Of a DNA stretch of 64,000 nucleotides, positions 43,152 through 63,792 are shown one piece after another. Origin of the DNA: Weeksella massiliensis (lineage in GTDB: Bacteria > Bacteroidota > Bacteroidia > Flavobacteriales > Weeksellaceae); NCBI GenBank assembly GCA_000751595.1, contig CCMH01000018.1, forward strand, positions 1-64,000, in the 5' to 3' direction. The notes below the pieces were generated by a model. It saw only the letters and a list, made by a program, of their open reading frames with translations, ran no database searches and had not been told where the DNA came from. Position 1 is the stretch's first letter. Every line of letters starts with the position of its first letter. A program made the translations under genes and the position numbers.

Positions 43152-43170
43152 AACACATTTATATTTATAA

Positions 43171-43178: not shown

Positions 43179-43191
43179 CACAGGGAGAGCC

Positions 43192-43206
43192 TGCAATGCT
43201 ATTGCA
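43192..43206. promoter_or_regulatory. Fur-family operator candidate, second copy
   Basis: TGCAATGCTATTGCA, a 7-1-7 inverted repeat with one mismatched pair. It has the same half-site as the operator at 49774-49788, and also sits just upstream of a TAACTTTG box. It overlaps the stop codon of the Fur-family gene. Confidence 0.7.
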
Positions 43207-43621: not shown

Positions 43622-43634
43622 TATCCAATGTTTT

Positions 43635-44906: not shown

Positions 44907-44914
44907 ATATTGTA

Positions 44915-47900: not shown

Positions 47901-49273
47901 ACAATGAGGATGATAACTTCGCCAAATGCGGCACTCGTACGAATTTTCCGTGCAGATTCATATACCTCTTCATCCATTTCTGCCTGCGTAAGTCTTTGTG
48001 TGGATTTCCGCAAGCCCAAATGATGCATTGTCGCTTCAACAACAATCAGGGAACCATCTATTACCAATCCGAAATCAATAGCCCCCATACTCATCAGGTT
48101 GGCACTTACACCAAACAGCCGCATCATTCCCAACGCAAAAAGCATAGATAGCGGTATGGCTGAGGCTACAATCAGTCCTGCTCTGAAATTCCCCAGGAAT
48201 AGAATTAATACAAAAATAACAATCAGTGCGCCCTCAATGAGGTTCTTTTGAACCGTACTTATCGCTCTATCAACCAAATCCATTCTGTCTAAAAATGGTT
48301 CTATGACCACGTCTTCGGGTAGAGATTGTTGGATAACCGGTATTTTTTCTTTGATACTTTTTACAACTTCAGAGGTGTTTTCTCCCTTCAACATCATTAC
48401 AATCCCACCCACAGCATCTACTTCGCCATTATAGGTCAATGCTCCGTACCGGGTTGCGTGACCAAATTGTACTTCTGCCACATCTTTGATAAATACCGGA
48501 ACGCTACCTGTATTTTTAACGACGATATTTCCTACATCTTCCAATGAAGTAACCAGACCAATCCCGCGAATAAAGTAAGCATTGGGCTTCTTATCGATAT
48601 ATGCACCTCCGGTATTTTGGTTGTTGTTTTCGAGGGCGGTAAAAATATCGGAAATACTAACGTCCATTGCCTTGATGCGGTTTGGGTCGATAGAAACTTC
48701 GTACTGTTTAAGCAAACCACCGAAACTATTGACTTCTGCAATTCCCGGAGTACCGTAAAGTTGTCTGGCAACAATCCAGTCCTGCATTGTCCGCAAATCC
48801 ATTGCGGAATATTTGTCTTCACTGCCTTCTTTGGGATGAAGAATATATTGGTACACTTCGCCAAGACCTGTACTGACAGGAGCAAGTTCAGGTGTTCCAA
48901 TCCCGTCAGGTATCTGGTCTTGTGCTTCTTTCAGCTGTTGGCTTACTAACTGTCGTGCAAAATAAATATCGACATTATCTTGAAAGACAACGGTTACAAC
49001 AGATAATCCAAATCTTGAAACACTTCTTATCTCTTCTACTTTTGGAAGATTAACGATACTTTGCTCTACGGGAAATGTTACTAATTGTTCTACTTCTTGT
49101 CCTGCCAATGTAGGCGACAGGGTAATAATCTGAACCTGATTGTTTGTAATGTCAGGTTGGGCATCAATGGGGATTTGGTTGGCACTCCATACCCCCCAAA
49201 TGATGAGAAACAAGGTCATCAATCCTATAATGAACTTATTCTTTATAGAGAATTTTATAATACTATTTAACAC
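44915..49273 (-). CDS. czcA: CzcA-type RND metal efflux pump fused to CzcC/TolC-like channel
   Basis: A 1452-residue protein in two parts. Residues 1 to about 1035 are a heavy-metal RND pump (CzcA/CusA, 12 helices), with GAIDFGLVIDGSLIVVEA in the fourth helix region. A second signal-like helix (APVLFLFMFLGFSQNGKAQ) then opens a TolC-like outer-membrane factor with its repeated ENNPQLRSKNLDIQSAQSLS motif. The two are normally separate proteins, although such fusions occur in Bacteroidota. An in-frame GTG at 49273 gives the family-like start VLNSIIKFSIKNKF; a TTG at 49315 is possible. A processing site between the two parts may exist. Confidence 0.92.
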   Translation of the reverse strand: MLNSIIKFSIKNKFIIGLMTLFLIIWGVWSANQIPIDAQPDITNNQVQIITLSPTLAGQEVEQLVTFPVEQSIVNLPKVEEIRSVSRFGLSVVTVVFQDNVDIYFARQLVSQQLKEAQDQIPDGIGTPELAPVSTGLGEVYQYILHPKEGSEDKYSAMDLRTMQDWIVARQLYGTPGIAEVNSFGGLLKQYEVSIDPNRIKAMDVSISDIFTALENNNQNTGGAYIDKKPNAYFIRGIGLVTSLEDVGNIVVKNTGSVPVFIKDVAEVQFGHATRYGALTYNGEVDAVGGIVMMLKGENTSEVVKSIKEKIPVIQQSLPEDVVIEPFLDRMDLVDRAISTVQKNLIEGALIVIFVLILFLGNFRAGLIVASAIPLSMLFALGMMRLFGVSANLMSMGAIDFGLVIDGSLIVVEATMHHLGLRKSTQRLTQAEMDEEVYESARKIRTSAAFGEVIILIVYIPILTLVGIEGKMFTPMAQTVSFAILGALILSFTYIPMMSALCLSKKPITKKNFSDKMMDYLQGVYKPLLEKAIRMKYVVIAVAVGLFTISIFFFSRMGGEFLPKLGEGDFAFHCILPQGTSLSQSLETSMQASRIIKEFDEVRMVVGKTGAAEVPTDPMPPEATDLMIILKPQDEWKTKKSYDELSNEMMEKLEVIPGVFFEANQPIQMRFNELMTGIRQDVAVKIFGEDLDSLLVYANKANAIIQTVEGATAPQVERVAGLPQINIEYDRTRIANYGLNVQEINDIVSTAFAGKSAGVIYENERRFDLVVRLDEAHRSSIEDVSNLFIPLPNGDQIPLSQVANIDYKLGPAQISREGGKRRIYVGFNVQGRDVASVVNEIQDKLAEQIKLPTGYYFTYGGQFENLQKATDRLLIAVPIALLLIFILLYFTFHSFKEAVLVYTAIPMSAIGGVFALLLRDMPFSISAGVGFIALFGVAVLNGIVLIATFNRLEKEGWNEIVPRIIEGAKTRLRPVLMTASVASLGFLPMALSTSAGAEVQKPLATVVIGGLISATALTLFVLPLLYLVFMRNQKPPKNNKTKAIAPVLFLFMFLGFSQNGKAQTPINVDKAIEIAMENNPQLRSKNLDIQSAQSLSKTAYELPKTDVNFQYGNTDGFEYNDGFQISQTIPFPTLFGAKKNLVKEQVKGQEWSKALTENELKKQVRTYYYQLEYLEHNASVLKYLDTIYADFIRVAELRYKTGDIGKLDVNTATTKKGEISLLYQQNEVLRQNAYQNLKNLMQTQEDFTIEPQPDYTPLLLSSFIDSSAVANHPSIQLLYQEAKIAEQNKKLERANSLPDFTFGYNNISLIGMHSKNGVEQFYGKGQRFSFVDLGITIPIFTTTKAKIRSLDYKKQSLELNAQWQEQQLKTELANALKQYEQYVAQFTYFKEQALPNADEIINAAKLGYSTGDISYVEYLFALQTTADIQLNYLNSIQQINEAVTLIHSLISK

Positions 49274-49405
49274 TTCTATTGTGATTAATGATGAATAATT
49301 AATGATAAATTGCAATGATTATGAATACGAGAAATACGAAGTATGACCCAAAACATTCAGCTTGTTGCTGTACGCAAAAAGCTATAATCATTAAAACATT
49401 AAAAA

Positions 49406-49792: not shown

Positions 49793-51052
49793 TTATTGCA
49801 ATCGTCTCTTTTTCTTCTTCATCCGTTTAGCAAATGTTTCTTCTTTATAATCCACGCCTTGTGCATCAGGTAAAAGGCTGAATAATCCTATATCGAAATT
49901 CTGAGAATGTTCCTGTGGGATAAACTCAAAAAGGTCTTTCGTTGGTTGGTTGTCTATTGTATTCGTTTTGGAAAGAGGGTTATCCTGTGTTTTCAGTTCG
50001 GGTTTGTTGCCGTTGTTCCACCAATCGTTAAAAACATTTGCAGACAGGTTTCTGTCTAACTGTGAACCATTCCATACACTACGGCTCTCGTGGTCAATGA
50101 AAGTTACTCCGTAAATCCGTCCGTTGTCGTTTCTGCGAACAATCGTATTAATACCGTGTTCGGTCAATTGTTTTCTAAATTCTATTTCGTTGCTTGTCGT
50201 GTGCATAGCCAATTCAACAGTATTCTTTAAAACTGACCTTACAGGATTGGTTTTCATTTTCTCTTTTGACTGTTCAAAATGCTTTTGTAGTTGTGCAACT
50301 CCTGCGTCTTTTCCGAAAAGCGATGCCTTAAACGGATTGCTTGCCTTGTTTCCGTTTTCGTCCACTGCCACATAGACCAATCCGTTTACCGGCTGACCGT
50401 TCCGCTCGCCTTTGACTTCTTCCGCTGTGATGTTGAACAGCGACAATAAAGCATTATAGCTTCCCATAGTCGGAAAGCTGTAATACTTCGGCAAATGCCG
50501 TACTACCGAAGCAATCTGACTTTTGATGTCGCCTTTGTGGTAATCCACAGGTTTGAAAACTTTGTTGGCTTGTTTCTGCTCCTGCTCGGTTGCTTTGTGC
50601 AGGTTGTATTTCGTTTCAAAATCCCGACAGATTGCCATTGAACGTGGGTGGTCGTAATCATCGGGGATTTTCTTACCGTCAATGCCTACACAGGTCGAAA
50701 CGATATGGATATGCATTCGGTCAATGTCCGTATGTTTGAAAACAATATAAGGCTGATTTCCGTAGCCCATACGTTCCATATATTCCTGTGCCATTTCCGT
50801 AAACTGCTCATCGCTTACCTCGTCTTTCGGGTCTGGGTTCAATGAAATATGCCGTACCGTTTTTTCTGTTTTGATGTTTGCAGACAAATACGGCTCAAAA
50901 CATTTATTGAAATACGCTACGGAATACCTGCCGTCCATTGTGTCGGGTATTTTGTTCAGCAACAAAACCGCTCCGTTTTCCCTGTCCACTTTCTGCTGAT
51001 TGTACAAAATCGCTCCGTACATATTGCTTCCCTTTCCGATTTTTGCAATCAT
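49793..51052 (-). CDS. Relaxase/mobilization nuclease
   Basis: A 419-residue relaxase that should nick the element's transfer origin and lead the strand into a recipient. It starts MIAKIGKGSNMYGAILYNQQKV, typical of Bacteroidota MobB/BmgA relaxases. The catalytic His cluster is FKHTDIDRMHIHIVSTCV (about 110-127). An upstream in-frame ATG at 51085 lies inside the preceding gene. It follows the MobA-like gene by 4 bp and ends 2 bp before the metal-island operator. Confidence 0.9.
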   Translation of the reverse strand: MIAKIGKGSNMYGAILYNQQKVDRENGAVLLLNKIPDTMDGRYSVAYFNKCFEPYLSANIKTEKTVRHISLNPDPKDEVSDEQFTEMAQEYMERMGYGNQPYIVFKHTDIDRMHIHIVSTCVGIDGKKIPDDYDHPRSMAICRDFETKYNLHKATEQEQKQANKVFKPVDYHKGDIKSQIASVVRHLPKYYSFPTMGSYNALLSLFNITAEEVKGERNGQPVNGLVYVAVDENGNKASNPFKASLFGKDAGVAQLQKHFEQSKEKMKTNPVRSVLKNTVELAMHTTSNEIEFRKQLTEHGINTIVRRNDNGRIYGVTFIDHESRSVWNGSQLDRNLSANVFNDWWNNGNKPELKTQDNPLSKTNTIDNQPTKDLFEFIPQEHSQNFDIGLFSLLPDAQGVDYKEETFAKRMKKKKRRLQ

Positions 51053-51056
51053 AATT

Positions 51057-51491
51057 TTACTCTTTATGTAGATATTGCTTTTCAAATCTGTCGGTAAGAA
51101 TTAAAACCTTTAGCAACAGTTCTTTCATTTTTGCGGTCTGTTTTTCCAATTTATAGAGATATGCAGATGCTTTTTTCTCCGAAAAATTGGCGTTCAATAG
51201 CCTTACAATCTGATTGTAATTGGTTGCTATTCCTCGAAACTGACTGAAAAATTTGGTCAGTCCTGCGTGGTATTCTACCGCATTCATATCAATTTTTACG
51301 GTCTTTACGGTCTTTTGAAAGATGCAAGCCGTAATGAAATGTGCCTTTACACTTATCCCCGATTGGTCAAAGAGGGCAAGGAACTTGGCGTTTTCCTCTG
51401 CATTCAGGTTAATAGAATACCGATGTACGGCAGGGTCATTCTTCGGTTTTCTCCCTGTTTTCCTAATTTGTTTACTGTTCTTTTCTTCCAT
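51057..51491 (-). CDS. MobA-like relaxosome accessory protein
   Basis: A 144-residue basic protein with a ribbon-helix-helix-like N terminus (TGRKPKNDPAVHRYSINLNAEENAKF) and a helical C terminus (LTKFFSQFRGIATNYNQIVRLLN). It fits the mobilization proteins that bind oriT beside the relaxase in Bacteroidota elements. The start at 51491 is the first ATG with family-like sequence; an upstream frame is open but unlike it. Confidence 0.85.
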   Translation of the reverse strand: MEEKNSKQIRKTGRKPKNDPAVHRYSINLNAEENAKFLALFDQSGISVKAHFITACIFQKTVKTVKIDMNAVEYHAGLTKFFSQFRGIATNYNQIVRLLNANFSEKKASAYLYKLEKQTAKMKELLLKVLILTDRFEKQYLHKE

Positions 51492-52038
51492 AATAAATCC
51501 ATTTCTAATGTTAAACAAAACTGCGACTTCGGAGCGGTTTTCAGCTCCCTGCAAGGGCAAGTGCTTTTGAGTGCCGAAATTCATTTCGAGTACCTCAAAA
51601 GATAACTTGCTCTGAACAGGAGTTCAGAAAAATCCGTTTTGCAAACGGATTGGAGTTAGCCGAAAAAATCAACTGCCCCGATTACAAAGTTCGATAAGAC
51701 TATTTGAAAAACAACGACTTACGATTACGCCAAATAAAGCCTTTGAACGCCAAATACTGCCACCCTTATGGGGGCAGGAATTGCTTTTATTTCCTTTGTA
51801 ACTAATTAACTGGCTGATTGGTTATATCCTTAATTAAGTAAATGAATGGCAAAAAAATCGACAGCAAATCTGCGTGATTGAATGCGGACTAATTGCTATT
51901 TTTTGAGTTAATGAACTAGCCAGTTAAGTGTATGCAGGTACATAGGTAAATAGTTGGCTACATAGATACAACAGTATATAGAACTAACTATTCAGCTAAC
52001 CAGATAGCTAATTGGATATAATATTAAAAATAAGAGAT
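51492..52038. other. Non-coding mob upstream region with hairpins; candidate oriT
   Basis: 547 bp between the divergent MobA-like and DUF3408 genes, no gene seen. It holds three strong hairpins: CTGAAC-4-GTTCAG (51612-51627), AATCCGTTT-3-AAACGGATT (51631-51651) and CTGCC-A-CCC-4-GGG-GGCAG (51757-51777). Repetitive AACTGGCT/AGCCAGTT-type words follow (51800-52010). Such hairpins next to mob genes are typical of a transfer origin. The nick site cannot be placed. Confidence 0.5.
51749..51763 (+). repeat. 15-bp direct repeat, copy 1
   Basis: GCCAAATACTGCCAC, identical to 52969-52983. The two copies flank the DUF3408 gene; copy 1 enters the strongest hairpin of the oriT candidate region. Confidence 0.6.
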
Positions 52039-52539
52039 ATGATACACGAAGAAAACAAAAATCATCAACCCGAAAAAGAAGATTTCTCTATTGAAAATTT
52101 CCTAACTGATGAAAAGAAACAACCTTTGATGAAACAACAAGGAATAACACATCGGGAAGACTTTGCAAAACCCGAAGTTGACGAGGAAGCTATTATGCGT
52201 GTAATGGCAGGAGAAGAACCCGAGGAAATAGCAACAGAAACGGAACATTCAAAGCCATTGGTCAACAATTCTAAAAAAGGCACTTCTAAAACCAAAAAAC
52301 TGACCAAAGAGGATTACTGCGGACAGTTCTTTAAAATTCCGAACAGTACTGCAAGTAGGGGTAAATCAGTCTATGTACGGCAGGAACACCACGAAACATT
52401 TAACAGGCTTACCAACATTATAGGAATTGACAAACTGACGATTTATGCGTATCTGGACAACATTATCGAGTACCACTTTCAGGAGTTCGGAGAACTGATT
52501 AAGGAAATCTATAACGATAAGCACAAGCCATTGTTTTGA
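52039..52539 (+). CDS. DUF3408 protein (conjugative element family)
   Basis: A 166-residue protein: an acidic, disordered N-terminal half (to about 85) and a conserved DUF3408 domain (about 95-160, DYCGQFFKIPNSTASRGKSVYVRQEHHE). The family is found in Bacteroidota conjugative and mobilizable elements and is suspected to work in DNA processing for transfer. The ATG at 52039 is preferred over a TTG 27 bp upstream. Confidence 0.8.
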   Translation: MIHEENKNHQPEKEDFSIENFLTDEKKQPLMKQQGITHREDFAKPEVDEEAIMRVMAGEEPEEIATETEHSKPLVNNSKKGTSKTKKLTKEDYCGQFFKIPNSTASRGKSVYVRQEHHETFNRLTNIIGIDKLTIYAYLDNIIEYHFQEFGELIKEIYNDKHKPLF

Positions 52540-52626
52540 TAACTGCCCATTGATAAGGATGCGTAATTCCCTCTCAAAAATTATTTTCAAAACAAAAAAA
52601 CAGAAAAAAAAGAAAGCCATTTTAAC

Positions 52627-52770
52627 AAGGCGGACAGGGGAAAAACCAAAAGGAAACGGAATAAGTCCCGAAGGGTGGCAGGGCAATCACACAACAACTC
52701 TGCGAAGCCACCTTTTGCCCTGCCATTATGCCGTAAGCTTTTGGTTGGGTGGTGCGGTGGCTGTCCGCTT
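52627..52770. repeat. Long imperfect inverted repeat, non-coding
   Basis: The arm starting AAGGCGGACAG (52627) pairs with CTGTCCGCTT (52761-52770), and the inner stem TGGCAGGGCAA pairs with TTGCCCTGCCA (52715-52725). Words of the first arm recur inverted at 62107-62145 in the second mobile element. The region 52540-53044 is otherwise without a gene I can support; a 117-codon frame across the repeat is best explained by the repeat itself. Confidence 0.6.
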
Positions 52771-52968
52771 TATCTTTGCGACCTTTTTATTCTTTTTTAA
52801 TCCATTCCAATCAAAGAAAGGGTACAAAAAACACGTAAGGGGTAAGGATAGGATGTTTTTGGTATGCTTTCCTTTATCCGTAGAAAACTCTTTAAATCCG
52901 TGAGGGCTTTGCGAGGAAAAGTTAAAGTGTTTTAAGGATTACTTTCCATTCCTATTGTGCCAATATAA

Positions 52969-52983
52969 GCCAAATACTGCCAC
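52969..52983 (+). repeat. 15-bp direct repeat, copy 2
   Basis: GCCAAATACTGCCAC, identical to 51749-51763, in the leader of the following small gene. Confidence 0.6.
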
Positions 52984-53044
52984 AAAAAGCCAAATGAAAA
53001 TAATACATTCTCTTGTGTTCTATATTGGGAAAAATTTTGAACCT

Positions 53045-53425
53045 ATGGCACAAAAAGTAAATACCAACAAAGAGCGTAAAGAAAACGAGCTATCCGAGAA
53101 AAAAAAGAATGCTCCTTTTATGCAGGTCGATAAGCATAGCGACCCGATTTCCAATTTTATTACCAACTTTAAACGTCAATTCAAAGATACAAAGGGTTTA
53201 GGTCTGGGCAGGTTGTTCGGTGGCAAGCGTGTTGAACAACAAAAACAGACTACCGAACCTGAAAGCGTAATAGGTGCAACAAAAACGGTTATGCGTTCGG
53301 ATTTCAAAAACGATGGAAAAAGTCAGACTGTACAAACCAACAAAAAACCAGCTTTGAGAATGGACAATACAATCAAATCACAACAAACTCGTCCGAAAAA
53401 TAATAAACCAAAATTGGGAATGTAA
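53045..53425 (+). CDS. Element protein of unknown function
   Basis: A 126-residue hydrophilic, basic protein starting MAQKVNTNKERKENEL, with a middle segment ISNFITNFKRQFKDTKGLGLGRLFGG and a low-complexity Lys/Gln/Thr tail. An in-frame upstream start at 52955 is less likely. No domain is recognised. It lies between DUF3408 and the HTH genes, a common place for small accessory proteins in these elements. Confidence 0.6.
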   Translation: MAQKVNTNKERKENELSEKKKNAPFMQVDKHSDPISNFITNFKRQFKDTKGLGLGRLFGGKRVEQQKQTTEPESVIGATKTVMRSDFKNDGKSQTVQTNKKPALRMDNTIKSQQTRPKNNKPKLGM

Positions 53426-53524
53426 TACCGTATTTGGCAACTGTACGCCAAACGCTACCTCTGACTGCAACATTGAGAAATCTTATATGAATTGCTTTTA
53501 TTTTCGAGGTATAAATGACATGAT

Positions 53525-53821
53525 ATGGAAATAACGGTTTTGGACATTCAGATTTTAAAGGCATTGCATAGGGAAGTAAAGGAAGTTTCCAATTTGATAG
53601 CGGAAATGACTGCACCCTACAAAGCACTGCAACAGGCAACAAAATGGCTCGACCAACAGGAAGCCTGCCAACTGCTCAACATCAGTAAACGAACTTTGCA
53701 GACGTACAGGGCAAAAGGTATTCTTGGGGCAACGCAAATCAATCGGAAAACATATTTCAGATTATCCGAAGTGGAATTACTGCTGCAGGGAGAGCGACCA
53801 TTAAAAAAGCAAAAGAAATGA
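53525..53821 (+). CDS. Helix-turn-helix protein (excisionase-like)
   Basis: A 98-residue protein with a C-terminal MerR/excisionase-like HTH (HTH_17): WLDQQEACQLLNISKRTLQTYRAKGIL (about 40-66), then a wing RKTYFRLSEVELLL. The N-terminal part is helical. In these elements such pairs control or serve integration and excision. It overlaps the next gene by 4 bp and is a paralogue of it. Confidence 0.82.
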   Translation: MEITVLDIQILKALHREVKEVSNLIAEMTAPYKALQQATKWLDQQEACQLLNISKRTLQTYRAKGILGATQINRKTYFRLSEVELLLQGERPLKKQKK

Positions 53822-54099
53822 AACAGATTGGAAATTCAAACGAAGATATGCTTGCCTTGCTCGAAGCTGTGGTAGGCATCAAAAATGAACTGCTGTATAT
53901 CAGGGAATATTTTCATCCACTCTTAAAAGGAGAAATCTACCTGTCAGGCGAACAGGTTTGCGAGATGTTGCATATCAGCAAACGGACATTGCAACAGTAC
54001 AGGGATGACGGACTGATACCTTTTATCAAGCTCGAACGAAAAATATTGTTACGTGAAAGCGATATTATCAAGGTATTGGAAGACAACTATCAGCGTTAA
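53818..54099 (+). CDS. Helix-turn-helix protein (excisionase-like), paralogue
   Basis: A 93-residue protein with the same HTH_17 plan as its neighbour: GEQVCEMLHISKRTLQQYRDDGLIPFIKLE (about 42-71). The start overlaps the preceding stop (ATGA). The tandem pair probably arose by duplication. It ends before a strong hairpin. Confidence 0.82.
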   Translation: MKQIGNSNEDMLALLEAVVGIKNELLYIREYFHPLLKGEIYLSGEQVCEMLHISKRTLQQYRDDGLIPFIKLERKILLRESDIIKVLEDNYQR

Positions 54100-54134
54100 C
54101 CAACTATCTGAAACTGTAACCGGGAGGTCAATTA

Positions 54135-54172
54135 AAGAAACAGCCACTGCTTTAAGCGGCGGGCTGTTTCTT
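54135..54172. terminator. Hairpin terminator between convergent genes
   Basis: AAGAAACAGCC pairs with GGCTGTTTCTT around a 16-bp GC-containing loop, between the HTH pair and the leftward GIY-YIG gene. Confidence 0.75.
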
Positions 54173-54174
54173 GC

Positions 54175-54966
54175 CTAATACCCTGTAGTTGTGGGTATTT
54201 TTTCAAAATAACGAATTGGATTTGCCATTCCTCTAATTTTAGGAACTTCTTTATTCATATATATATCAAGAATTTCTTTTGAAGTAACTTCTGAACCTTC
54301 AAATCCCCATCTTTTGACACCTCTATTTTCAATATCTTGAACCCATTTTTCAGGCTTAAATATCGCTCTTATTACACCTTTATATTCAGCTAAAACGAAA
54401 TCTGAATTTTCTGCTCTGTCTTTGTCTAATACCCACCAACCTCTGGTTGCTTCATAAATATTTGGTCTGTCATAAATAGGGTTCTCACTTTTCTTTTTTC
54501 GTTTATTATCGTATGTTTTGTTTATATTGATTACTAAAACGTTATGTTTAATATCTTCTTTTTTCAATACTTCACAATTGTAAAGTATTTCACACTCATT
54601 AACAGTTTTAATCCCTTGATTAAATGAATAATGTCCTGCAACGATATTTGAAATTTTCGCAACCTCTACAAAATCCTTAAAAGTTAAAAAATCAATTAAA
54701 ACAGCTTCAACTATTAGTGCTTCATTTTCTTCTAATCCGTGTCGCACTATAAAATGTTTTACTTTTAGATCTTCTTGTTTTATGGCTCTTATAATCTTTA
54801 ATTTTTCAGTTCCGACTGGGTTGAATATCGCTTCATTAATATGTGAAAAAACACGATTTCCATACCCTTTTCCAACATAGAATATTTTATTATCTCTTGG
54901 GTCTATTAAAATATAAACATAAGATTTTAATTCTTCTTGTGTCTTTTGTGAAAATTGTTCAATCAT
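54175..54966 (-). CDS. GIY-YIG nuclease-domain protein
   Basis: A 263-residue protein starting MIEQFSQKTQEELKSYVYILIDPRDNKIFYVGKG, with the LEM-3-like GIY-YIG pattern (YVYILI, then FYVGKG at about 27-32, and the catalytic-type Arg in YGNRVFSHI). A second part (about 110-263) has a conserved WWVLDKDRAEN. The frame is open upstream into the integrase gene, but this ATG is preferred. It has no clear job in mobility; cargo or anti-DNA defence are guesses. Base composition is AT-richer than the mob genes, as if separately acquired. Confidence 0.8.
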   Translation of the reverse strand: MIEQFSQKTQEELKSYVYILIDPRDNKIFYVGKGYGNRVFSHINEAIFNPVGTEKLKIIRAIKQEDLKVKHFIVRHGLEENEALIVEAVLIDFLTFKDFVEVAKISNIVAGHYSFNQGIKTVNECEILYNCEVLKKEDIKHNVLVININKTYDNKRKKKSENPIYDRPNIYEATRGWWVLDKDRAENSDFVLAEYKGVIRAIFKPEKWVQDIENRGVKRWGFEGSEVTSKEILDIYMNKEVPKIRGMANPIRYFEKIPTTTGY

Positions 54967-54997
54967 AATTTGTTGTTTTATTGACTTCAAAAATACA

Positions 54998-55028
54998 AAA
55001 AGCCAATGCAAAAAACTGCATTGGCTTT
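54998..55028 (-). terminator. Integrase terminator
   Basis: AAAGCCAATGCA pairs with TGCATTGGCTTT, with a poly-A/T neighbourhood, 20 bp after the integrase stop and ahead of the GIY-YIG gene. Confidence 0.75.
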
Positions 55029-55048
55029 CTTTAATCGCTTTACAGGTT

Positions 55049-56299
55049 TTAGAATTGAGCCACAAAAAACTGCTCCATACCTTTGAATTTATGTGATACT
55101 TTTTGCATATCCTTACCAACTTTCTCGTTAAGTATCTTGGCATAAATCTGTGTTGTGGCAATGTTTTTATGCCCTAACATTTTGCTCAAACTTTCGAGCG
55201 GAACGCCCTCACTCAAAAACAATGTGGCAAATGTATGACGTGCCAAATGAAAGGTTACTTTCTTTTCTTTCAGGCAGTCAATAAGTTGTGATATTCTCTT
55301 TAGGCTGTCATTACAGATTGTATTTGAAGGTACAGGAAATACCTTTCCGTCCTTTGCAAATCCTGCATACTTTTCGATAATCATTTTCGGTATATCCAAA
55401 AGCATCACGTTTGACGATGTAGCCGTTTTCTTTCTGCGTACGATAATCCATTGATTGTCATCAAAGAAATCCTGAATATTACTGTTTCTAAGCCCTTTCA
55501 TATCCGAATAAGACAATCCTGTAAAGCAACTGAACACAAACAAATCTTTAACCAATTCGTCTTTCTTTTTCTCGCAGTTGAATGTTACAAGCTGTTCCAA
55601 CTCGTTCCGTAGCAGATAACCTCTGTCTTTGTCCTTTTTAGTGTTCTTGTACTCGCTGAACGGATTGAAAGCAAGATGCTTTCTGCTCATTGCTAATCGA
55701 CAAAGCGTGGTAAAGCCAATCATATACAGCCAAATGGTGTTGTGCGCCAAGCTTTGGGCGTCACGCAGGTAGTAATCAAATTCCTGTACAAAATCAGGAG
55801 TAAGGTCGTTAAAAGACACATCGGAATAACCATATTTTGTAAGTGCAAAATTTCGAAGATGTTTCAAAAGTATTTTGTATTTACTGCGTGTGCCATTTAC
55901 CCGAAGTCCACTATTAACCTTTTTCTCATAGTCGGACAGGAACTGTTCATAGAATTTGAAAAAGGTCAGTTCTCCACTTTCCATACCGAGAAAGGTGTTT
56001 TTAAGTTTAGCACTGTTTACAGCCCCCTCATTCTTCAGAATTTTGGAATAGCATTCCTCAATACCCGAACGAATTTTGTCAAGTTTCCTGTTTGTGTCTT
56101 GTGCTTCTCGGCTTTTACCTAAAACCCTACCGTACTTCAAATCCCAATTTGTTGCGGAAATATCCAGCTTTGTACTGAATGCAGACTGTTTGCCGTTTAC
56201 GGTAATTCTGCACATAACCGTAACTTTTCCGTTTTTCTTTGGAGCGTTCTTTTTAAGATAGAACAATACCTTAAACGTTGATTTTTTTGTCGTTTCCAT
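55049..56299 (-). CDS. Tyrosine recombinase (integrase) of the element
   Basis: A 416-residue tyrosine integrase starting METTKKSTFKVLFYLKKN, the Bacteroidota conjugative element type. It has an N-terminal arm-binding and SAM-like part, then a catalytic domain with the HxxR box HLARHTFATLFLSEG (about 351-365), the second His in GHKN (about 377) and the nucleophile Tyr in TTQIYAKI (about 386). The first catalytic Arg region reads FTGLSYSDMKGL, with Ser in place of Arg, usual for this group. It lies about 0.26 kb from the right border and presumably made the 12-bp att cores. Confidence 0.92.
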   Translation of the reverse strand: METTKKSTFKVLFYLKKNAPKKNGKVTVMCRITVNGKQSAFSTKLDISATNWDLKYGRVLGKSREAQDTNRKLDKIRSGIEECYSKILKNEGAVNSAKLKNTFLGMESGELTFFKFYEQFLSDYEKKVNSGLRVNGTRSKYKILLKHLRNFALTKYGYSDVSFNDLTPDFVQEFDYYLRDAQSLAHNTIWLYMIGFTTLCRLAMSRKHLAFNPFSEYKNTKKDKDRGYLLRNELEQLVTFNCEKKKDELVKDLFVFSCFTGLSYSDMKGLRNSNIQDFFDDNQWIIVRRKKTATSSNVMLLDIPKMIIEKYAGFAKDGKVFPVPSNTICNDSLKRISQLIDCLKEKKVTFHLARHTFATLFLSEGVPLESLSKMLGHKNIATTQIYAKILNEKVGKDMQKVSHKFKGMEQFFVAQF

Positions 56300-56410
56300 A
56301 CTCACAATTCTTAATGATAAAATTAAACCTATGTGAGCTACTGAACAATATGAAAAACTATGCAGAAAGCTGAAATACAGTATTTTAAAACGATTGTTTC
56401 TAATATTTAA

Positions 56411-56428
56411 AAGTAACGTTTTAGTAAC
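56411..56428 (+). repeat. Subterminal repeat, right (candidate integrase arm site)
   Basis: AAGTAACGTTTTAGTAAC, two mismatches from 39012-39029 at the other end. Both are in direct orientation. Confidence 0.55.
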
Positions 56429-56483
56429 CTTACTTTTGCCAAACCTCGCTTTTTACTGCTTTTTACCTCATTACCAAAAAATC

Positions 56484-56521
56484 ACAAAACGGCTGTAAAG
56501 CCCTTATTTACAACCGTTTTG
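56484..56521. terminator. Hairpin at right end of element
   Basis: CAAAACGGCTGTAAA pairs with TTTACAACCGTTTTG (one G-T pair) around a 7-8 bp loop. It probably insulates the element's right end from host transcription. Confidence 0.6.
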
Positions 56522-56556
56522 CCTGTTATTAATCTTTAATGTATTTTTACTGAAAC

Positions 56557-56568
56557 TTTATTTTAAAG
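56557..56568. repeat. Element attachment core, right copy (attR)
   Basis: TTTATTTTAAAG, identical to 38938-38949. The base after it resumes the interrupted CotH-type gene in frame (AAA then GAT). Confidence 0.9.
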
Positions 56569-56957
56569 ATATTGATCAAACGATTGAAGCAATTGCTTTA
56601 CCAGGATATAAATTTTCGCATTGGGAAGGAGATATCGAATCTACCGAACAGAAACTAACGATTCGCCCGACAGAAGATCTATATGTGAAAGCAGTTTTTG
56701 ATAAGAAAATGGGCTTAGGAGATATCGATAAAGTTGATTTTTTACTCTATCCTAATCCCGCTCGTGAAAAGTTGTTTGTGCAGTCATCATCAGCTTCGGC
56801 CATCGATTATACGATCACGACGATGGTTGGTCAGCAAATATTACAAAGCTCTACTAAAACGAATGAAATCGATATCCGAGGACTCAAACCGGGTGTTTAT
56901 TTTATTCAATTGGTTCAAGATCATAAAAAAGTAACTAAGAAATTTATCAAACAATAA
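56569..56957 (+). pseudogene. CotH-type T9SS protein, 3' part (disrupted)
   Basis: The continuation of the gene broken at 38949. The frame across the join gives KDIDQTIEAIALPGYKFSHW, then a C-terminal type IX sorting domain (YPNPAREKLFVQ, then LKPGVYFIQL and KKFIKQ at the end). With both parts joined the gene would be 1,632 bp (543 codons and stop) but with a TAG at codon 120. It ends before a terminator. Confidence 0.88.
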
Positions 56958-56977
56958 TTCAACTAAAAATCCAAATA

Positions 56978-57005
56978 AAGTCGCTAATTGAGCGACTTTT
57001 TTTAT
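56978..57005 (+). terminator. Terminator
   Basis: AAAGTCGCT pairs with AGCGACTTT, followed by a T run, 20 bp after the CotH-type gene end. Confidence 0.9.
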
Positions 57006-57105
57006 TATAACTGAATAAGTTTTCAGAACTTTAACAAATAATTGAGGCAATTAAAACAACCAAGAGCGTACTTTTCGCATCTAAACGATAAGAAAGAAAT
57101 ATATT

Positions 57106-57633
57106 TTGGACGAGAAACAAATGATAAAAGCTTGTATCAATCATGATTCAAAAGCACAAAAAATGCTTTATGAAAAATATGATGCACGATTTTTTGGAGT
57201 TTGTAAACGGTATTTTTCTAATATTCAACAAGCCGAAGATGCCTTGGTAAAAGGATTCTTAAAAGTTTTTCAGAATTTAGAATCTTATCAATTTCAAGGA
57301 AGTTTTGAAGGTTGGATGCATCGGATTTTTGTCAATGAATGCCTGATGGAATTGCGCAAAAACAAAGCGATAATGGTAGATTATGATCAGTCTACCGAAG
57401 CCAAAGCACTGATGGCAACCGAAAATACATCGCTCGAAGAACAAGATGTTATGCAGACTTTGTTTCTTTTACCAGAAGGTTGTCGTTTGGTTTTTACTCT
57501 TTTTGTGCTAGAAGGGTACAAACATAAAGAAATCGCCGAAGCCTTGAATATATCAGAAGGAACTTCTAAATCGCAGCTCAATCTAGCTAAAACAAAGCTA
57601 AAAGAGTTGTTGAGCAAACAAACTAATCAATAG
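57106..57633 (+). CDS. ECF-type RNA polymerase sigma factor
   Basis: A 175-residue sigma-70 family ECF factor: region 2 (about 22-90, ARFFGVCKRYFSNIQQAEDALVKGF) and region 4 (about 120-170, LFVLEGYKHKEIAEALNISEGTSKSQL). It starts with TTG at 57106, giving MDEKQMIKACI as in relatives; an ATG at 57121 is the alternative. It is paired, 4 bp later, with a membrane protein gene, the usual sigma/anti-sigma order. Confidence 0.9.
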   Translation: MDEKQMIKACINHDSKAQKMLYEKYDARFFGVCKRYFSNIQQAEDALVKGFLKVFQNLESYQFQGSFEGWMHRIFVNECLMELRKNKAIMVDYDQSTEAKALMATENTSLEEQDVMQTLFLLPEGCRLVFTLFVLEGYKHKEIAEALNISEGTSKSQLNLAKTKLKELLSKQTNQ

Positions 57634-57637
57634 AAAG

Positions 57638-58528
57638 ATGATGGAAAAGGATAACATAGAAGAACTTTTTCGGGAGCAAGCGAAAAAATTAGAAGAAAAA
57701 CCCGAAGAACAAGTTTGGCAAAAACTAGAAAAACAATTGCATCCTAAAAAAGAAATTCATTGGACAAATTTCAAGGATAGTGTTTGGTTTTCGGCAGCTG
57801 TGTACGCCCTAATTGCTGTTCCGATTTTTGTTTTGTATTTTATCGAAAAAGGAAATTCTTCATCGGAAATAGAAACGATGATCGTTTCGAATGTCGAATC
57901 AAGTCCAGAAAAAGGACCGCAAAAAGGACAACAAGCAGAAGGGGTAGATAAGATAGAATTGACCAAGAAAGAAGAAACTTTTAAAAAAGAATTGGCGAAA
58001 AATTCGGTAGAAAAAGCACCAATCAAAACACAACAAAAAATAGAAGATACAGGAGAAGTAGAAAAAGATGGGATTGCTATTTCCGAAGAAAATCAACCCA
58101 TTTTAGCTGCTAATTTAGACGTAAATAAAATGTCTGATGAAGAAATAGAGCATCCGAAAGCGATAGCCTCGGCCAATCAATTCGATGAAGTAAGACCTAC
58201 AAAAATGGCTTCGCAAAGGGTTGAAATTCAAAAAGAAGGACAAGAAGTTGAGCATAAAAATCAAAAAATAGAGCAAGCCAAAGAAAAAGAAGATGTTGTT
58301 TTTTTACCCGATCAATTTTTGGTTTTGGATTCGATATTCAAAGTCAATTTCAGAATCAAAGAAAAAACACCGAATCAATTGCTATTCAAGAATAAAGAAG
58401 TCGAATTGCGCTTTCGAAAAGATGAAAAAGATTCGATTGTCATTGAATCCAATGATCAAATCAATCCTACCATAAAAGAAAAAATTGAAAAACGAAAAAA
58501 AGATATTTTTCGCTGGTATGAAAAATAA
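57638..58528 (+). CDS. Putative anti-sigma factor, single-helix membrane protein
   Basis: A 296-residue protein with a cytosolic N-terminal part (about 1-48, NIEELFREQAKKLEEKPEEQVW), one transmembrane helix (about 50-70, WFSAAVYALIAVPIFVLYFI), a low-complexity Glu/Lys/Gln-rich linker (about 80-215) and a C-terminal folded segment (VVFLPDQFLVLDSIFKVNF). The N-terminal LxxxA..LEEKP..VWxKLE pattern resembles anti-sigma domains of Bacteroidota. It is not firmly in any family. It is coupled to the sigma factor gene. Confidence 0.7.
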   Translation: MMEKDNIEELFREQAKKLEEKPEEQVWQKLEKQLHPKKEIHWTNFKDSVWFSAAVYALIAVPIFVLYFIEKGNSSSEIETMIVSNVESSPEKGPQKGQQAEGVDKIELTKKEETFKKELAKNSVEKAPIKTQQKIEDTGEVEKDGIAISEENQPILAANLDVNKMSDEEIEHPKAIASANQFDEVRPTKMASQRVEIQKEGQEVEHKNQKIEQAKEKEDVVFLPDQFLVLDSIFKVNFRIKEKTPNQLLFKNKEVELRFRKDEKDSIVIESNDQINPTIKEKIEKRKKDIFRWYEK

Positions 58529-58560
58529 AATAATTATCTTTCTGCCTATAAATTAACACA

Positions 58561-60171
58561 ATGCGAAAAATATTTACAGTAGGATTAGGGCTTTTTTGTG
58601 GCTTTTTATCTGCACAAGAATTGGTTTTTGTTGAGTTTAAAGATAAACCACAAGCAACCGTTGCGCTTAATCAACCTTTAAGCATTCTTACTCAAGATGC
58701 GTTGGATAGACGAAGCAAAAGAGGGGTGAATCTCGATGAACGAGATGTGCCTTTGGAAGCTACGTATGTGCAACAAGTGAAGCAAAATTTTCCGATTTTA
58801 GGTTTTTCTAAATGGCTCAATGGAGTAGTGGTGAATGCGAATTCTGAGCAAGATATTCTTAGCCTTTCTCAATTACCTTTTGTGAAAAAAGTGCAAACAT
58901 TTGTTCAAAATCCAGATGCGGTACGAACTGAAAATAAAGCTCCAAAATTTTCTGCCTCAACTAAAAATCAAGACAGAACCAAAGCGCAAGTTTCGGATGA
59001 GTTTATTCAACAACTAAATTTACAAGTATTACATAGTCAGGGATTTACAGGTAAAAATGTAAAATTAGCTGTGATCGATGCTGGTTTTCCGTACGTCAAT
59101 ACCATGCAAGCTTTTGCGAATAGTAGAAATAATAATCGCATAAAATTTACGTATGATTTTGTGACCAAAAGTGCCAATGTTTATGATCTAAATTCCAATG
59201 ATCATGGAACAATGGTTTTGAGTAATATTGCTGCAAAAACTTCTGAATATACAGGGACAGGTTACGATGCCGATTTGTATCTTTTCCGGACGGAAGATGC
59301 GCCGACAGAAACCCCTTTAGAAATGGTTTATTGGGTGATGGCCGCCGAAAAAGCCGATAGCTTGGGAGTAGATGTTATCAATTCTTCTTTGGGATATTAT
59401 GAGTTTGATGATCCTCGATACGATTATTCTCATGAGGATTTGGATGGTAAAACGACTTATATCACTCGAGGGGCAAATATTGCTGCCGAGAAAGGAATGA
59501 TTTTGGTGATTTCTGCCGGAAATGAACGTTCTACCAATTGGGGTAAAATTTCTGCTCCTGCAGATGCACATAATATCTTAACGATTGGTGCTGTCAATTT
59601 ACAAGGAAACATAGCTTATTTTTCATCTTATGGACCGACAGCAGATAACCGCATAAAGCCAGATGTGGTCGCTTTGGGCGTTTCGGTGCCGGTGTACAAT
59701 TATAGTTGGTGGGGCGAGGAAATTGAGCGCAACAACGGAACTTCTTTTTCTTCTCCAATCACGGCAGGTGCAGTGGCTTCTTTGATTCAGAAATATGAGA
59801 ATTTTACGGTAGCGCAAATCATAGAAGCTGTTCAGAAAGCAGGAAATCGTTATCAAAATCCGAACAATGATTTTGGATATGGAATTCCAGATTTTGCAAA
59901 AGCGATGCAATATTTAGATGAAAATCTTTCGACAACCGTTTTTGCAAATCAAAACATAGAAATTTACCCAAATCCGACCAAAGATCGGTTAACGGTAAAG
60001 TCAGCTACTTCGATCGATCGATTAGAGATTTTGGATATGAATGGACGTGTTGTTCGCGAGTATTTTAAGAAGAACTCTATTTCTTTGCAAAGTCTTCTGA
60101 AAGGAGTTTATTTCGTGAAGATTTATTTTTCGGATGGAAAAGAAGTTACTCAAAAAATTATCAAAGAGTAA
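58561..60171 (+). CDS. Secreted S8 (subtilisin-like) protease with T9SS sorting domain
   Basis: A 536-residue protein with a signal peptide ending FLSAQ, an N-terminal propeptide-like region (about 20-140), an S8 catalytic domain with Asp in LAVIDAGFP (about 173), His in SNDHGTMVLSN (about 217), Asn in VISAGNERS and Ser in NNGTSFSSPITAG (about 396), then a C-terminal type IX sorting domain (about 460-536, IEIYPNPTKDRLTV, LKGVYFVKI). It should be exported to the surface or medium. It is 32 bp after the membrane protein gene, so the sigma system may control it. Confidence 0.93.
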   Translation: MRKIFTVGLGLFCGFLSAQELVFVEFKDKPQATVALNQPLSILTQDALDRRSKRGVNLDERDVPLEATYVQQVKQNFPILGFSKWLNGVVVNANSEQDILSLSQLPFVKKVQTFVQNPDAVRTENKAPKFSASTKNQDRTKAQVSDEFIQQLNLQVLHSQGFTGKNVKLAVIDAGFPYVNTMQAFANSRNNNRIKFTYDFVTKSANVYDLNSNDHGTMVLSNIAAKTSEYTGTGYDADLYLFRTEDAPTETPLEMVYWVMAAEKADSLGVDVINSSLGYYEFDDPRYDYSHEDLDGKTTYITRGANIAAEKGMILVISAGNERSTNWGKISAPADAHNILTIGAVNLQGNIAYFSSYGPTADNRIKPDVVALGVSVPVYNYSWWGEEIERNNGTSFSSPITAGAVASLIQKYENFTVAQIIEAVQKAGNRYQNPNNDFGYGIPDFAKAMQYLDENLSTTVFANQNIEIYPNPTKDRLTVKSATSIDRLEILDMNGRVVREYFKKNSISLQSLLKGVYFVKIYFSDGKEVTQKIIKE

Positions 60172-60193
60172 ACTTCTATTCTAATAAAAAATG

Positions 60194-60228
60194 AAACAGT
60201 ACAAAGTATAATTTTGTACTGTTTTTTT
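60194..60228 (+). terminator. Terminator
   Basis: AAACAGTACAAA pairs with TTTGTACTGTTT, followed by a T run, 22 bp after the protease stop. Confidence 0.9.
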
Positions 60229-60491
60229 AAGAAAAAATATTAGATAAAGACAAAAATAAGCAAAACGGTTAAGACCGTTACTATACAGCGGTTTATAAAA
60301 GAGCAGTACAAAGTTGGAAGTTGGTGTACGTTAGGTTTTAGACTAAAAAAGACAGGGTTAGGTTACTAAATCATTACTGATTAAAATAGCTGAACTAATA
60401 TTTAAGTGATTATAATTCAATCATTTGCTTCGGTTTTCATCATTCCTTATAACTCATTGATAGTTAATTTTAAACATTAAACAATTGAGTT

Positions 60492-61757
60492 ATGGAGACA
60501 GTGAAAAGATCCACTTTCAAGTTGTTATTTTACTTGAAGAAAAATGAGCCAAAAAAGAATGGTAATGTTCCCATCATGGGGCGAATTACTATTGACGGAA
60601 CCCCAAAAACATTTGCGGCTAAATTAGAAATTAACCCCGATAATTGGGATTTAAAGCACGGAAGGGTTTTGGGAAAGAGTGCTCCGGCATTAAGTATTAA
60701 TCTGAAGTTGGATAATATCAGGGTGCGTGTCAACAAAATTTACGATGATATGCTTAAAGATGAAGGTTTTGCTACATCACAAAAAGTAAAACTATCATTT
60801 TTAGGTGTTGGTGTCATGGATGATGCTATACTTAAAGTTTTCAAGGACCAAAATGAGGAATTCGAAAAAATGGTAAGCAAAGGCAAGCGTTCTCAGAACA
60901 CCTATAATAAATATAAAACTGTTTACAGACATCTTTGTGAGTTTATTAAGGAACGCTATCACAGAGAAGATATGGCTTTTAGGGAACTCACTTCCGACTT
61001 CATTCGGGAGTTTGATTTCTTTCTCCGTATTGATAAGGAATGTACACATAACACTGTTTGGGTTTATACCATGCCTGTAATCGCTTTGGCAGATCTGGCT
61101 ATCAAAAAAGGTCTAATCCGTCAAAATCCTTTTGAAGACTATGAGATCAGTATGCAGGAAACTGATCGTAGCTACCTTTTAAAAGAAGATGTGGAAAAGC
61201 TGATGCTTCTAAAACCTTCTAAGCCTAAATACGAGCTTGTAAAAGATCTCTTTATTTTTAGTTGCTTCACAGGACTTTCTTATATCGATATCCAAAAACT
61301 GAAATGGAGCAATATACAGTCCTTCTTTGACGGCCACCAGTGGATTATTAGCAAAAGAAAAAAATCAGACGTTGCTTCGAATGTCCGCCTTTTAGAAATT
61401 CCTAAACGTATCATTGAGAAGTACAGAGGTATTACCCGTGATGATTATGTTTTTCCAGTTCCTTCCAACGCTACCTCTAACAGCCATGTGAAGAAACTCA
61501 TAGAAGAAGCAGAAATCATTACGGAACATAAAGTAACCTTTCATACTGCACGCCATACATTTGCAACAATGTTCTTAACGGAGGGCGTGCCACTTGAAAG
61601 TCTTAGTAAAATGATGGGACACAAAAATATTTCCACCACACAGATTTATGCCAAAATTACAAGCCAAAAAATAAGCAAGGATATGGATATTGTTGCTGAT
61701 AAATTCGCTGGAATGGAAGCAGCATTTATTGAAATGGAAGAAGAAGCTCCAATATAA
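60492..61757 (+). CDS. Tyrosine recombinase (integrase) of second element
   Basis: A 421-residue integrase, clearly homologous to the one at 55049-56299 (METVKRSTFKLLFYLKKNEPKKNG, and a C-terminal HTARHTFATMFLTEG, GHKN and TTQIYAKI with the nucleophile Tyr). The region around the first Arg reads FTGLSYIDIQKL, with Ser there, as in its relative. It points into the second element, as the first one points into its own, so the two elements are mirrored across a 3.6-kb stretch of host DNA. It is followed by a terminator. Confidence 0.92.
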   Translation: METVKRSTFKLLFYLKKNEPKKNGNVPIMGRITIDGTPKTFAAKLEINPDNWDLKHGRVLGKSAPALSINLKLDNIRVRVNKIYDDMLKDEGFATSQKVKLSFLGVGVMDDAILKVFKDQNEEFEKMVSKGKRSQNTYNKYKTVYRHLCEFIKERYHREDMAFRELTSDFIREFDFFLRIDKECTHNTVWVYTMPVIALADLAIKKGLIRQNPFEDYEISMQETDRSYLLKEDVEKLMLLKPSKPKYELVKDLFIFSCFTGLSYIDIQKLKWSNIQSFFDGHQWIISKRKKSDVASNVRLLEIPKRIIEKYRGITRDDYVFPVPSNATSNSHVKKLIEEAEIITEHKVTFHTARHTFATMFLTEGVPLESLSKMMGHKNISTTQIYAKITSQKISKDMDIVADKFAGMEAAFIEMEEEAPI

Positions 61758-61776
61758 TGACAACTATTTATATGTT

Positions 61777-61805
61777 AAGCAGGATCGTTAAATCCTGCTT
61801 TTTTT
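61777..61805 (+). terminator. Integrase terminator
   Basis: AAGCAGGAT pairs with ATCCTGCTT around a 6-bp loop, followed by a T run. Confidence 0.9.
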
Positions 61806-62033
61806 ATGCCTATACTTTTATAGTCTAAGCACATTTACGTCTTTCACACTCCCCTCTGAATAAAAGAGCTTATACTACTTCTTGAAATAGAAAATTGAAA
61901 AACATAGCCCTGCTTTTCCCTCTCTTTATATTTTCCAAATCTCTATCACCGGCTTTAGAGCCGGGTCATTTATTCCATAAAATTTAAGACAAAATATTTC
62001 CATAATCAACCGGTAAAAAGGCAGCCAAAGTAC

Positions 62034-62145
62034 GGCGGTCACCCACGCTCAATCCCAGCAAAAAGACTACGGCATAAACGGTTTCCTCCCTAAAGGTGCC
62101 CTCCAATTATTCCGTTTCCTTTTGGCTTTCCCCTCTGACCGCCTT
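62034..62145. repeat. Imperfect inverted repeat, related to 52627-52770
   Basis: GGCGGTCA (62034-62041) pairs with TGACCGCC (62136-62143). The inner arm from 62107 to 62145, reverse-complemented, reads AAGGCGGTCAGAGGGG, then CCAAAAGGAAACGGAATAA, nearly the same as 52627-52664 in the first element. 61806-62281 holds no other gene I can support. Confidence 0.6.
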
Positions 62146-62281
62146 GATAGTCTGCTTTCTTTTTTCCGGTTTTTCTTTTGGAAAAAATTATGCGAAGCGA
62201 AGCCGAGTAAACCACAACAGGGAGCAGGAAACGAGAAAAGCGAACGTAACAAAATTTAAAACTTTTAAAACAGGAACGATT

Positions 62282-62718: not shown

Positions 62719-63792
62719 ATGGCACATAATATCAATTTCAACGAGCAAACAGGGCGTTATTCATTTTTTAGTGTAAAACAAAAAGCGTGGCACGGTTTGG
62801 GGCAAATCGTAGAGCAATACCCGACAAGCGAAGAAGCTATCCGACACGCAGGATTAGATTATGAGGTGGTTAAATCCCCATTGTTTACCAAAGGTTCGGG
62901 TATTATCGAAACCGCCAACGGTATCGAGATAGGCAGTAGCGAATTGGAAGTACCTAACTATTTCGCCAACATACGCACCGATAACAATGCCGCATTGGGT
63001 GTAGTTGGTAAGGATTACCACATCGTACAGAACCGTGAAGCCTTTAATTTCTTTGATGCCATTGTAGGTGGTGGCGAGGGTATTCTATACGAAACCGCAG
63101 GAGCATTGGGCAACGGAGAACGCATTTTTATCACAGCAAAACTGCCCGATTATATCCGTGTAGGCAATGGCGATGACGTGACAGAAAAATATATCTTCCT
63201 CACGACTTCACACGATGGTAGCGGAAGTATTACAGCTGCTTTTACACCTATCCGTATCGTATGCCAAAACACGCTGAATGCTTCCTTACGCAATATGACT
63301 AACGTAGTCCGTATCAAACATACTTCGGGAGCAAAACAACGTATTGAAAACGCCCACAAGATTATGGGATTGGCAAACACACTGAGCAACCAATTAGAGA
63401 ACATATTTAATAATTGGTCGAAAGTGAGAGTAACAGACCAAGAGGTCAAAAAGCTAATCCAATTGGCACTTTGCCCGAACAAAGAAACGCTTGACTTACT
63501 CAAAAAAGGTGCGGAAGATGAAGTTTCTACCGTGTTCAAAAATGTGGTTGATGATGCTTTTAGTTATGCAATGTTAAGCGACACCCAACAAATGGACACC
63601 ACCAAAGGCACATTGTTCGGAGCGTACAACGCTGTGACAGGCTATTATCAGAATGTGAGAAATTACAAGAATGAGGAAGCCAAATTGCAGAGCATTGTAT
63701 TGGGCGGTACTGCCCAACTCAAATCACAGAAAGCATTTGAATTGTGTACTGCCTTTGCTTTGGACGGTGCGGAAATCTTAACCCTTAATTAG
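62719..63792 (+). CDS. DUF932 protein (phage/plasmid-like)
   Basis: A 357-residue protein of the DUF932 family, common in phages, plasmids and conjugative elements. The start is MAHNINFNEQTGRYSFFSVKQKAWHGLG, with conserved VVGKDYHIVQNREAFNFFDAIVG and TSHDGSGSITAAFTPIRIVCQNTL. The role is unknown. It follows ssb by 44 bp on the same strand. Confidence 0.88.
   Translation: MAHNINFNEQTGRYSFFSVKQKAWHGLGQIVEQYPTSEEAIRHAGLDYEVVKSPLFTKGSGIIETANGIEIGSSELEVPNYFANIRTDNNAALGVVGKDYHIVQNREAFNFFDAIVGGGEGILYETAGALGNGERIFITAKLPDYIRVGNGDDVTEKYIFLTTSHDGSGSITAAFTPIRIVCQNTLNASLRNMTNVVRIKHTSGAKQRIENAHKIMGLANTLSNQLENIFNNWSKVRVTDQEVKKLIQLALCPNKETLDLLKKGAEDEVSTVFKNVVDDAFSYAMLSDTQQMDTTKGTLFGAYNAVTGYYQNVRNYKNEEAKLQSIVLGGTAQLKSQKAFELCTAFALDGAEILTLN

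Follow-up and report, generated by a model that had tools for sequence, protein, structure and literature searches.

In a 64,000-nucleotide stretch of the Weeksella massiliensis genome (contig CCMH01000018.1, positions 1 to 64,000; hereafter, the window), two homologous copies of one imperfect hairpin lie in opposite orientations, at 52600-52800 on the plus strand (element 1) and at 62010-62170 on the minus strand (element 2). We consider it likely that this hairpin is a single-stranded DNA (ssDNA) promoter or primer site, similar to the Frpo/ssi sites of proteobacterial plasmids, on the transferred strand of conjugative and mobilizable elements, and we propose that the hairpins constitute a new family of ssDNA promoter/primer sites in Bacteroidota. 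This interpretation is built on what can be read from sequence: the homology of the copies, their covarying stems, the position of a promoter-like box, the polarity of the hairpin relative to a candidate origin of transfer (oriT), and the orientation of neighboring genes.

The first-pass annotation described inverted repeats at 52627-52770 and 62034-62145 and a near-identical arm shared by the two in inverted orientation. Both observations were confirmed. A BLASTN search with element 1 against its own genome returned only element 1 itself and a minus-strand match at 62107-62165 (85% identity over 59 bp, E value of 1.2e-10), and repeat pairing matched 52638-52664 with 62107-62133 (93%) as well as 52726-52749 with 62054-62077 (83%). 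Within element 1, a repeat search paired the internal arms 52644-52664 and 52726-52746 at 81%. Both hairpins exceeded the extent noted earlier, reaching approximately 52600-52800 and 62010-62170, because an additional outer stem formed by an A-tract and a T-tract closes each of them. The ssDNA fold of element 1 had an energy of -37.0 kcal/mol (z-score of -2.8 relative to shuffled sequence), and that of the minus strand of element 2 an energy of -28.6 kcal/mol (z-score of -3.3).

From the outermost part inward, the hairpin consists of a base stem, an internal loop, an outer stem, a near-invariant middle stem, and a variable apical part. The base stem pairs an A-tract and GAAAGC with GC..CC and a T-tract; in element 1, its 5' arm (52604-52617, plus strand), which would be the template side in our model, contains the A-tract and GAAAGC, and its 3' arm with the T-tract is located at 52779-52790 (plus strand). 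The outer stem of element 1 is formed by AAGGCGGACAG (52627-52637, plus strand) and CTGTCCGCTT (52761-52770, plus strand). The middle stem has the near-invariant form CCAAAAGGAAACGGAATAA / TTATGCCGTA-GT-CTTTTGG, and in element 1 its 5' arm CCAAAAGGAAACGGAATAA (52646-52664, plus strand), the near-invariant core, and its 3' arm TTATGCCGTAAGCTTTTGG (52726-52744, plus strand) enclose the apical hairpin TGGCAGGGCAA...TTGCCCTGCCA (52676-52725, plus strand). In element 2, the minus strand of which is the proposed transferred strand, the outer stem 5' arm is CAAGGCGGTCA (62136-62146) and the middle stem is formed by the 5' arm CCAAAAGGAAACGGAATAA (62107-62125) and the 3' arm TTATGCCGTAGTCTTTTTG (62059-62077), all on the minus strand. 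A small conserved hairpin, TTTTTC-AAAA-GAAAAA, adjoins the base stem in the 5' flank of many copies, for example at 62165-62190.

Hairpin matches were present in 53 of 197 sampled genomes of the family. An exact two-arm pattern was found in at least 120 stretches of GTDB contigs from many Bacteroidota families, the matches listed including Chryseobacterium, Flavobacterium, Sphingobacterium, Pedobacter, Mucilaginibacter, Chitinophagaceae, Dyadobacter, Algoriphagus, and others. In a phylum-wide sample, the pattern occurred in 11 of 395 genomes, and a reversed control pattern occurred in none among the matches listed. A BLASTN search of 72,556 plasmids gave no hairpin match. Given that just 6 stretches were found among 2.9 million viral contigs, the hairpin is not mainly a phage feature. 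In nine loci of a Chitinophagaceae type (L090, L094, L101, L105, L152, L169, L170, L172, and L176), two hairpins with the same orientation stand in tandem, separated by approximately 730 bp, and flank a DUF6943-type gene.

The stems are conserved as pairings. In 46 family sequences, the structure described above was 93% paired and contained 84 compensatory cells, in which both sides had changed, compared with 23 in shuffles (0/500) and at most 22 in slid versions of the same structure. Given that loop lengths vary widely, we used arm-pairing permutation tests in place of a covariance model. Among 58 diverse copies, the arms of the outer stem paired with their own partner at -11.8 kcal/mol and with the partner of other copies at -7.8 kcal/mol, with the corresponding values for the base stem being -15.1 and -8.8 kcal/mol (0/2000 permutations). 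Divergent base stems retained the fold, as exemplified by AAATTTAGATGC / GCATCTTAAATTT of L090. The apical hairpin alone had weak own-versus-cross support phylum-wide, yet it covaried well within the family, and there the covariation was strongest. The plus strand, which bears the box described below, folded better than its complement in 53 of the 58 diverse copies on the basis of energy (p value of 3e-10) and in 43 of them on the basis of the z-score. The first-pass annotation had stated that a lack of compensating changes and of a conserved position in an alignment of many elements would count against its view of the repeats; compensatory changes were found, and the hairpin kept a constant position and polarity with respect to the oriT-like site.

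In the 3' arm of the hairpin, a motif of the form TAnCTT(A/T)GC separates the outer stem from the base stem. For flavobacterial sigma-A, the -7 consensus is TAnnTTTG (PMC9723704). Among 126 3' arms, the form TA..TT.G was present in 86,.A..TT.G in 115, and the exact TAnnTTTG in 31. Element 1 has an exact match, TATCTTTG (52771-52778, plus strand), the placement of which in the internal loop is an average over relatives. Element 2 has TACTTTGG (62025-62032, minus strand), which is one position off the consensus, with a TTG (62050-62052, minus strand) located 17 nucleotides upstream. The box lies in the internal loop between covarying stems, and its positions were unpaired with a mean probability of 0.3-0.65, compared with approximately 0.1-0.2 at the best-paired positions of the flanking stems. 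Outside the hairpin, no consensus promoter recurred on either strand, with TAnnTTTG being present there in at most 1 of 58 copies per 60-nucleotide window.

Upstream of mobA/mobB lies a conserved site composed of an inverted repeat and, after it, AACTTGC; a reversed control gave 0 matches. In the window, this site comprises GAGTGCCGAAATTCATTTCGAGTACCTCAAAAG and then ATAACTTGC (51569-51610, plus strand), with a proposed nick near TTGC, and it looks like an oriT. When pairs of oriT-like site and hairpin were counted within 60 kb, the oriT-like site was on the 5' side of the hairpin and on the same strand in 34 of 34 pairs, at a distance of 0.2-27 kb. The repeats themselves had earlier been put forward as candidate origins of transfer; the presence of the separate site at 51569-51610, and of such sites 0.2-27 kb from the hairpins, argues against that assignment. 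In known relaxosomes, the inverted repeat sits 5' of the nick; transfer should therefore involve the plus strand and begin with its left end. A stable single-strand hairpin, as expected for an ssDNA promoter, was thereby placed on the putative transferred strand, this strand assignment being made by way of the putative oriT. The rule that a relaxase gene is always 5' of the hairpin was true in the Weeksellaceae-like family and failed in Flavobacterium-type loci, nine of which have mobC, and usually the relaxase gene, on the other side of the hairpin; their oriT-like site is still 5' and on the plus strand and is thus the constant partner. At three loci (L068, L069, and L026; G169, G032:496452, and G163), the hairpin has neither a nearby relaxase gene nor an oriT-like match within 60 kb, and such copies are possibly remnants or parts of a different transfer system.

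On double-stranded DNA (dsDNA), the box points rightwards. The right-hand (3') neighbors of the hairpin showed no strand preference (60 plus, 61 minus), and 25 of the 31 loci with an exact TAnnTTTG had a minus-strand gene on the right, leaving nothing for a rightward promoter to serve. The nearest 5' gene pointed away from the hairpin in 99 of 124 loci; by kind, this was the case for 39 of 39 ssb, 12 of 13 RadC, and 8 of 8 DUF932 genes. Of 77 loci in which such a gene is near the hairpin, 54 had TA..TT.G in the 3' arm, and none had it on the gene's own strand in the intervening sequence. This mismatch between box direction and gene orientation would be resolved by a promoter on the folded single strand, with the 3' arm as the non-template strand and the transcript running leftwards. 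Overall, the genes downstream of such a promoter point towards the oriT-like site, with the putative transferred strand as template; this is not so in loci of the element-1 type.

From these relations we infer the identity of the oriT, transcription from ssDNA, and priming. The transferred strand would enter the recipient 5' end first, and the hairpin site would fold. As the non-template strand, the 3' arm would then expose a -7-like box for Bacteroidota sigma-A, which the internal loop would leave partly pre-melted, and the 5' arm together with the DNA beyond it would serve as the template, with host RNA polymerase transcribing back towards oriT. In elements of the ssb type, represented by element 2, the ssb, DUF932, and PRTRC genes would be expressed before second-strand synthesis, and in the small mobilizable type, represented by element 1, the main role of the RNA would be as a primer for complementary-strand synthesis. 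After conversion to dsDNA, the box would face the other way and leftward output would be off. The earlier suggestion of a protein-binding repeat would be retained in part by this mechanism, with the proposed binder being host RNA polymerase on the folded single strand.

Several observations weigh against this interpretation. The exact box was present in 10 of the 58 diverse copies, compared with 8 for a permuted control motif, TT..ATTG; given that the control nearly equals the exact count, support for the box comes more from its constant location and its looser form than from exact matches. Most type-2 copies deviate from TAnnTTTG, with TACCTTAG being the commonest form and TACTTTGG that of element 2, and no conserved -33 TTG was found at a fixed spacing. 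The two strands of element 1 alone fold about equally well (z-scores of -2.8 and -3.0), and strand preference is therefore a property of the family. The 34 of 34 pairs with the same polarity include copies of one lineage, which are non-independent. In integrative and conjugative elements (ICEs) of the ssb type, the hairpin is 15-27 kb from the oriT-like site, which is late for a leading region. Finally, in loci of the element-1 type, the predicted transcript runs antisense through the DUF3408 gene and there is no gene in the predicted direction, so that what fits this type is either priming or an ordinary promoter firing rightwards into the neighboring genes.

The main rival, which overlaps with the reading that we favor and which we regard as possible though unlikely, is that the hairpin is a single-strand origin (sso/ssi) only, priming complementary-strand synthesis with any mRNA being incidental. 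Such a role suits loci of the element-1 type, which lack a gene in the direction of the transcript and in which the hairpin is often approximately 985 bp from the oriT-like site. A functional sso is also known in ICEBs1 (PMC4595007), and Frpo itself is described as both a promoter and a primer site in the title of Masai and Arai 1997 (cited in PMC11541004). Priming alone leaves unexplained the recurrence of ssb, RadC, and DUF932 genes, which have no box of their own, just downstream in the direction of the transcript. Rather more doubtful is the idea that one box acts in two directions, with the ssDNA hairpin firing towards oriT (to ssb, RadC, DUF932, or a replication primer) and the dsDNA box firing the opposite way, which in element 1 would drive a hypothetical gene and helix-turn-helix (HTH) genes beside the integrase gene. 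If this is true, the hairpin would switch, by changing its conformation, from establishment genes to those for maintenance or excision.

We judge it improbable that the hairpin is an ordinary dsDNA promoter or operator, or a protein-binding repeat in which it forms the binding site for an integrase, a regulator, or a relaxosome protein. Copies of the element-1 type do have an exact TAnnTTTG together with plus-strand genes to the right (a hypothetical gene and two HTH genes), and the middle-stem sequence is near-invariant, as would be expected for a protein site. However, 25 of the 31 exact boxes face a minus-strand gene, the base and outer stems change in sequence yet retain pairing, and the fold prefers one strand. 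The chance that a structured RNA, either a small RNA or the mRNA leader suggested by the first-pass annotation, is transcribed through the hairpin appears slighter again. Conserved stems with compensatory changes are consistent with such an RNA, as is the better folding of the plus strand, given that RNA with G-U pairs would behave likewise, but no Rfam match was found in the entire window at E values of up to 1. A structured RNA would also require a promoter, located 5' of the hairpin for a plus-strand RNA or 3' of it for a minus-strand leader, and in these flanks TAnnTTTG was present in at most 1 of 58 copies per 60-nucleotide window. A transcript from the one recurrent promoter-like box, which is inside the 3' arm, would lack the hairpin, and the fixed polarity relative to the oriT-like site would be left unexplained. 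The hairpin is thus probably not a structured RNA. A bidirectional transcription terminator with A-tract and T-tract flanks is very hard to credit, for although T-tracts end many copies on both strands, the hairpin does not fit the pattern of a G+C-rich stem with a T-run at gene ends, the variants L090 and L097 retain the outer stem without A/T tracts, the 5'-side genes are mostly divergent rather than convergent (with the 5' neighbor starting at the hairpin in 99 of 124 loci), and a terminator requires neither a conserved -7-like box nor a polarity fixed to oriT.

The first mobile element in the window contains genes for a MobB relaxase (49793-51085, minus strand) and a MobC_2/Bacteroid_MobA mobilization protein (51057-51584, minus strand), with a DUF3408 gene (52012-52539, plus strand) between the oriT-like site and element 1 and a tyrosine integrase gene at 55049-56305 (minus strand). 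Element 1 is approximately 1 kb from the oriT-like site, flanked by the DUF3408 gene on one side and by a small gene and two HTH genes on the other. A gene for a LEM-3-like GIY-YIG protein (54175-55161) overlaps the 3' end of the integrase gene, and the region beside the mobilization genes (40370-49315) carries metal-resistance cargo, with a CzcA-like efflux protein and a P-type ATPase identified by reading of open reading frames. In the second mobile element, the 3' end of a tyrosine integrase gene (60492-61757, plus strand) faces element 2. On the other side, ssb (PF00436; 62282-62674, plus strand) is divergent from element 2 and would be the first gene to be expressed from the transferred strand once this had folded; it is followed in the same direction by a DUF932/TIGR03299 gene (62719-63792, plus strand). 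The earlier statement that both repeats lie upstream of transfer-type genes thus applies to element 2, which precedes ssb and DUF932, and not to element 1, which lies between the DUF3408 gene and the small gene with two HTH genes. On the same contig, genes for the PRTRC system proteins E and B and ThiF (64525-68087) follow ssb and DUF932 in the same direction, and a Gabija anti-phage system (68503-72251; GajA, E value of 3e-302; GajB, E value of 4e-106) comes after these genes, just past the end of the window.

Our literature search found no paper in which Frpo or ssDNA promoters were connected with Bacteroidota, and PMC11541004 makes no mention of Bacteroid*. In the literature searched, we also found no account of how conjugative elements of Bacteroidota are protected or established before second-strand synthesis. 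A widespread hairpin with a recognizable core provides a handle for testing early establishment in this phylum. Its position could reveal genes that are expressed early, possibly including anti-defense genes, and the polarity of transfer could be read from sequence.

Expression from incoming ssDNA has been demonstrated in vivo for F (PMC9849209), with genetic support for ColIb-P9, and Frpo2 of F is required for early ssb expression (PMC9849209). On F, Frpo is a hairpin of the transferred strand directly upstream of ssb and drives the expression of genes oriented towards oriT while the second strand is still to be made (PMC9849209, PMC11541004). The Bacteroidota hairpin resembles Frpo1/Frpo2 (ssi) of F, ColIb-P9, and other proteobacterial plasmids in being a long imperfect hairpin of the putative transferred strand with a promoter-like box. 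It also shares with F its position upstream of ssb, genes pointing towards oriT, and the presence of ssb and DUF932 in the region, with the F leading region carrying both genes pointing towards oriT. In the F Frpo2 region, a single case, the transferred strand folds better than its complement (-119.2 versus -111.6). Unlike Frpo, the Bacteroidota hairpin has a box of the -7 type (TAnnTTTG-like) rather than -35 and -10 boxes, its near-invariant core GGAAACGGAATAA/TTATGCCGTA is new, and in ICEs it is located up to 27 kb from the oriT-like site. Inspection by eye, with no alignment made, revealed no motif common to F Frpo2 and the Bacteroidota hairpin. In plasmid sso, complementary-strand synthesis proceeds by way of a hairpin and RNA polymerase. 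Compared by description only, the Bacteroidota hairpin would be like the sso of rolling-circle plasmids and ICEBs1 (PMC4595007) in being a strand-specific ssDNA origin, and one carried on an ICE, but unlike an sso it is also located upstream of establishment-type genes. It is similarly like EGeRS of pLS20-family plasmids, which are non-coding sequences, conserved and repeated, that precede establishment operons (PMC8708921). The authors who described EGeRS rejected an ssDNA promoter on the grounds that the fold contained no promoter and because of which of the two strands is nicked (PMC8708921); the Bacteroidota hairpin, in contrast, has a box within its fold, and we infer that its strand fits such a role.

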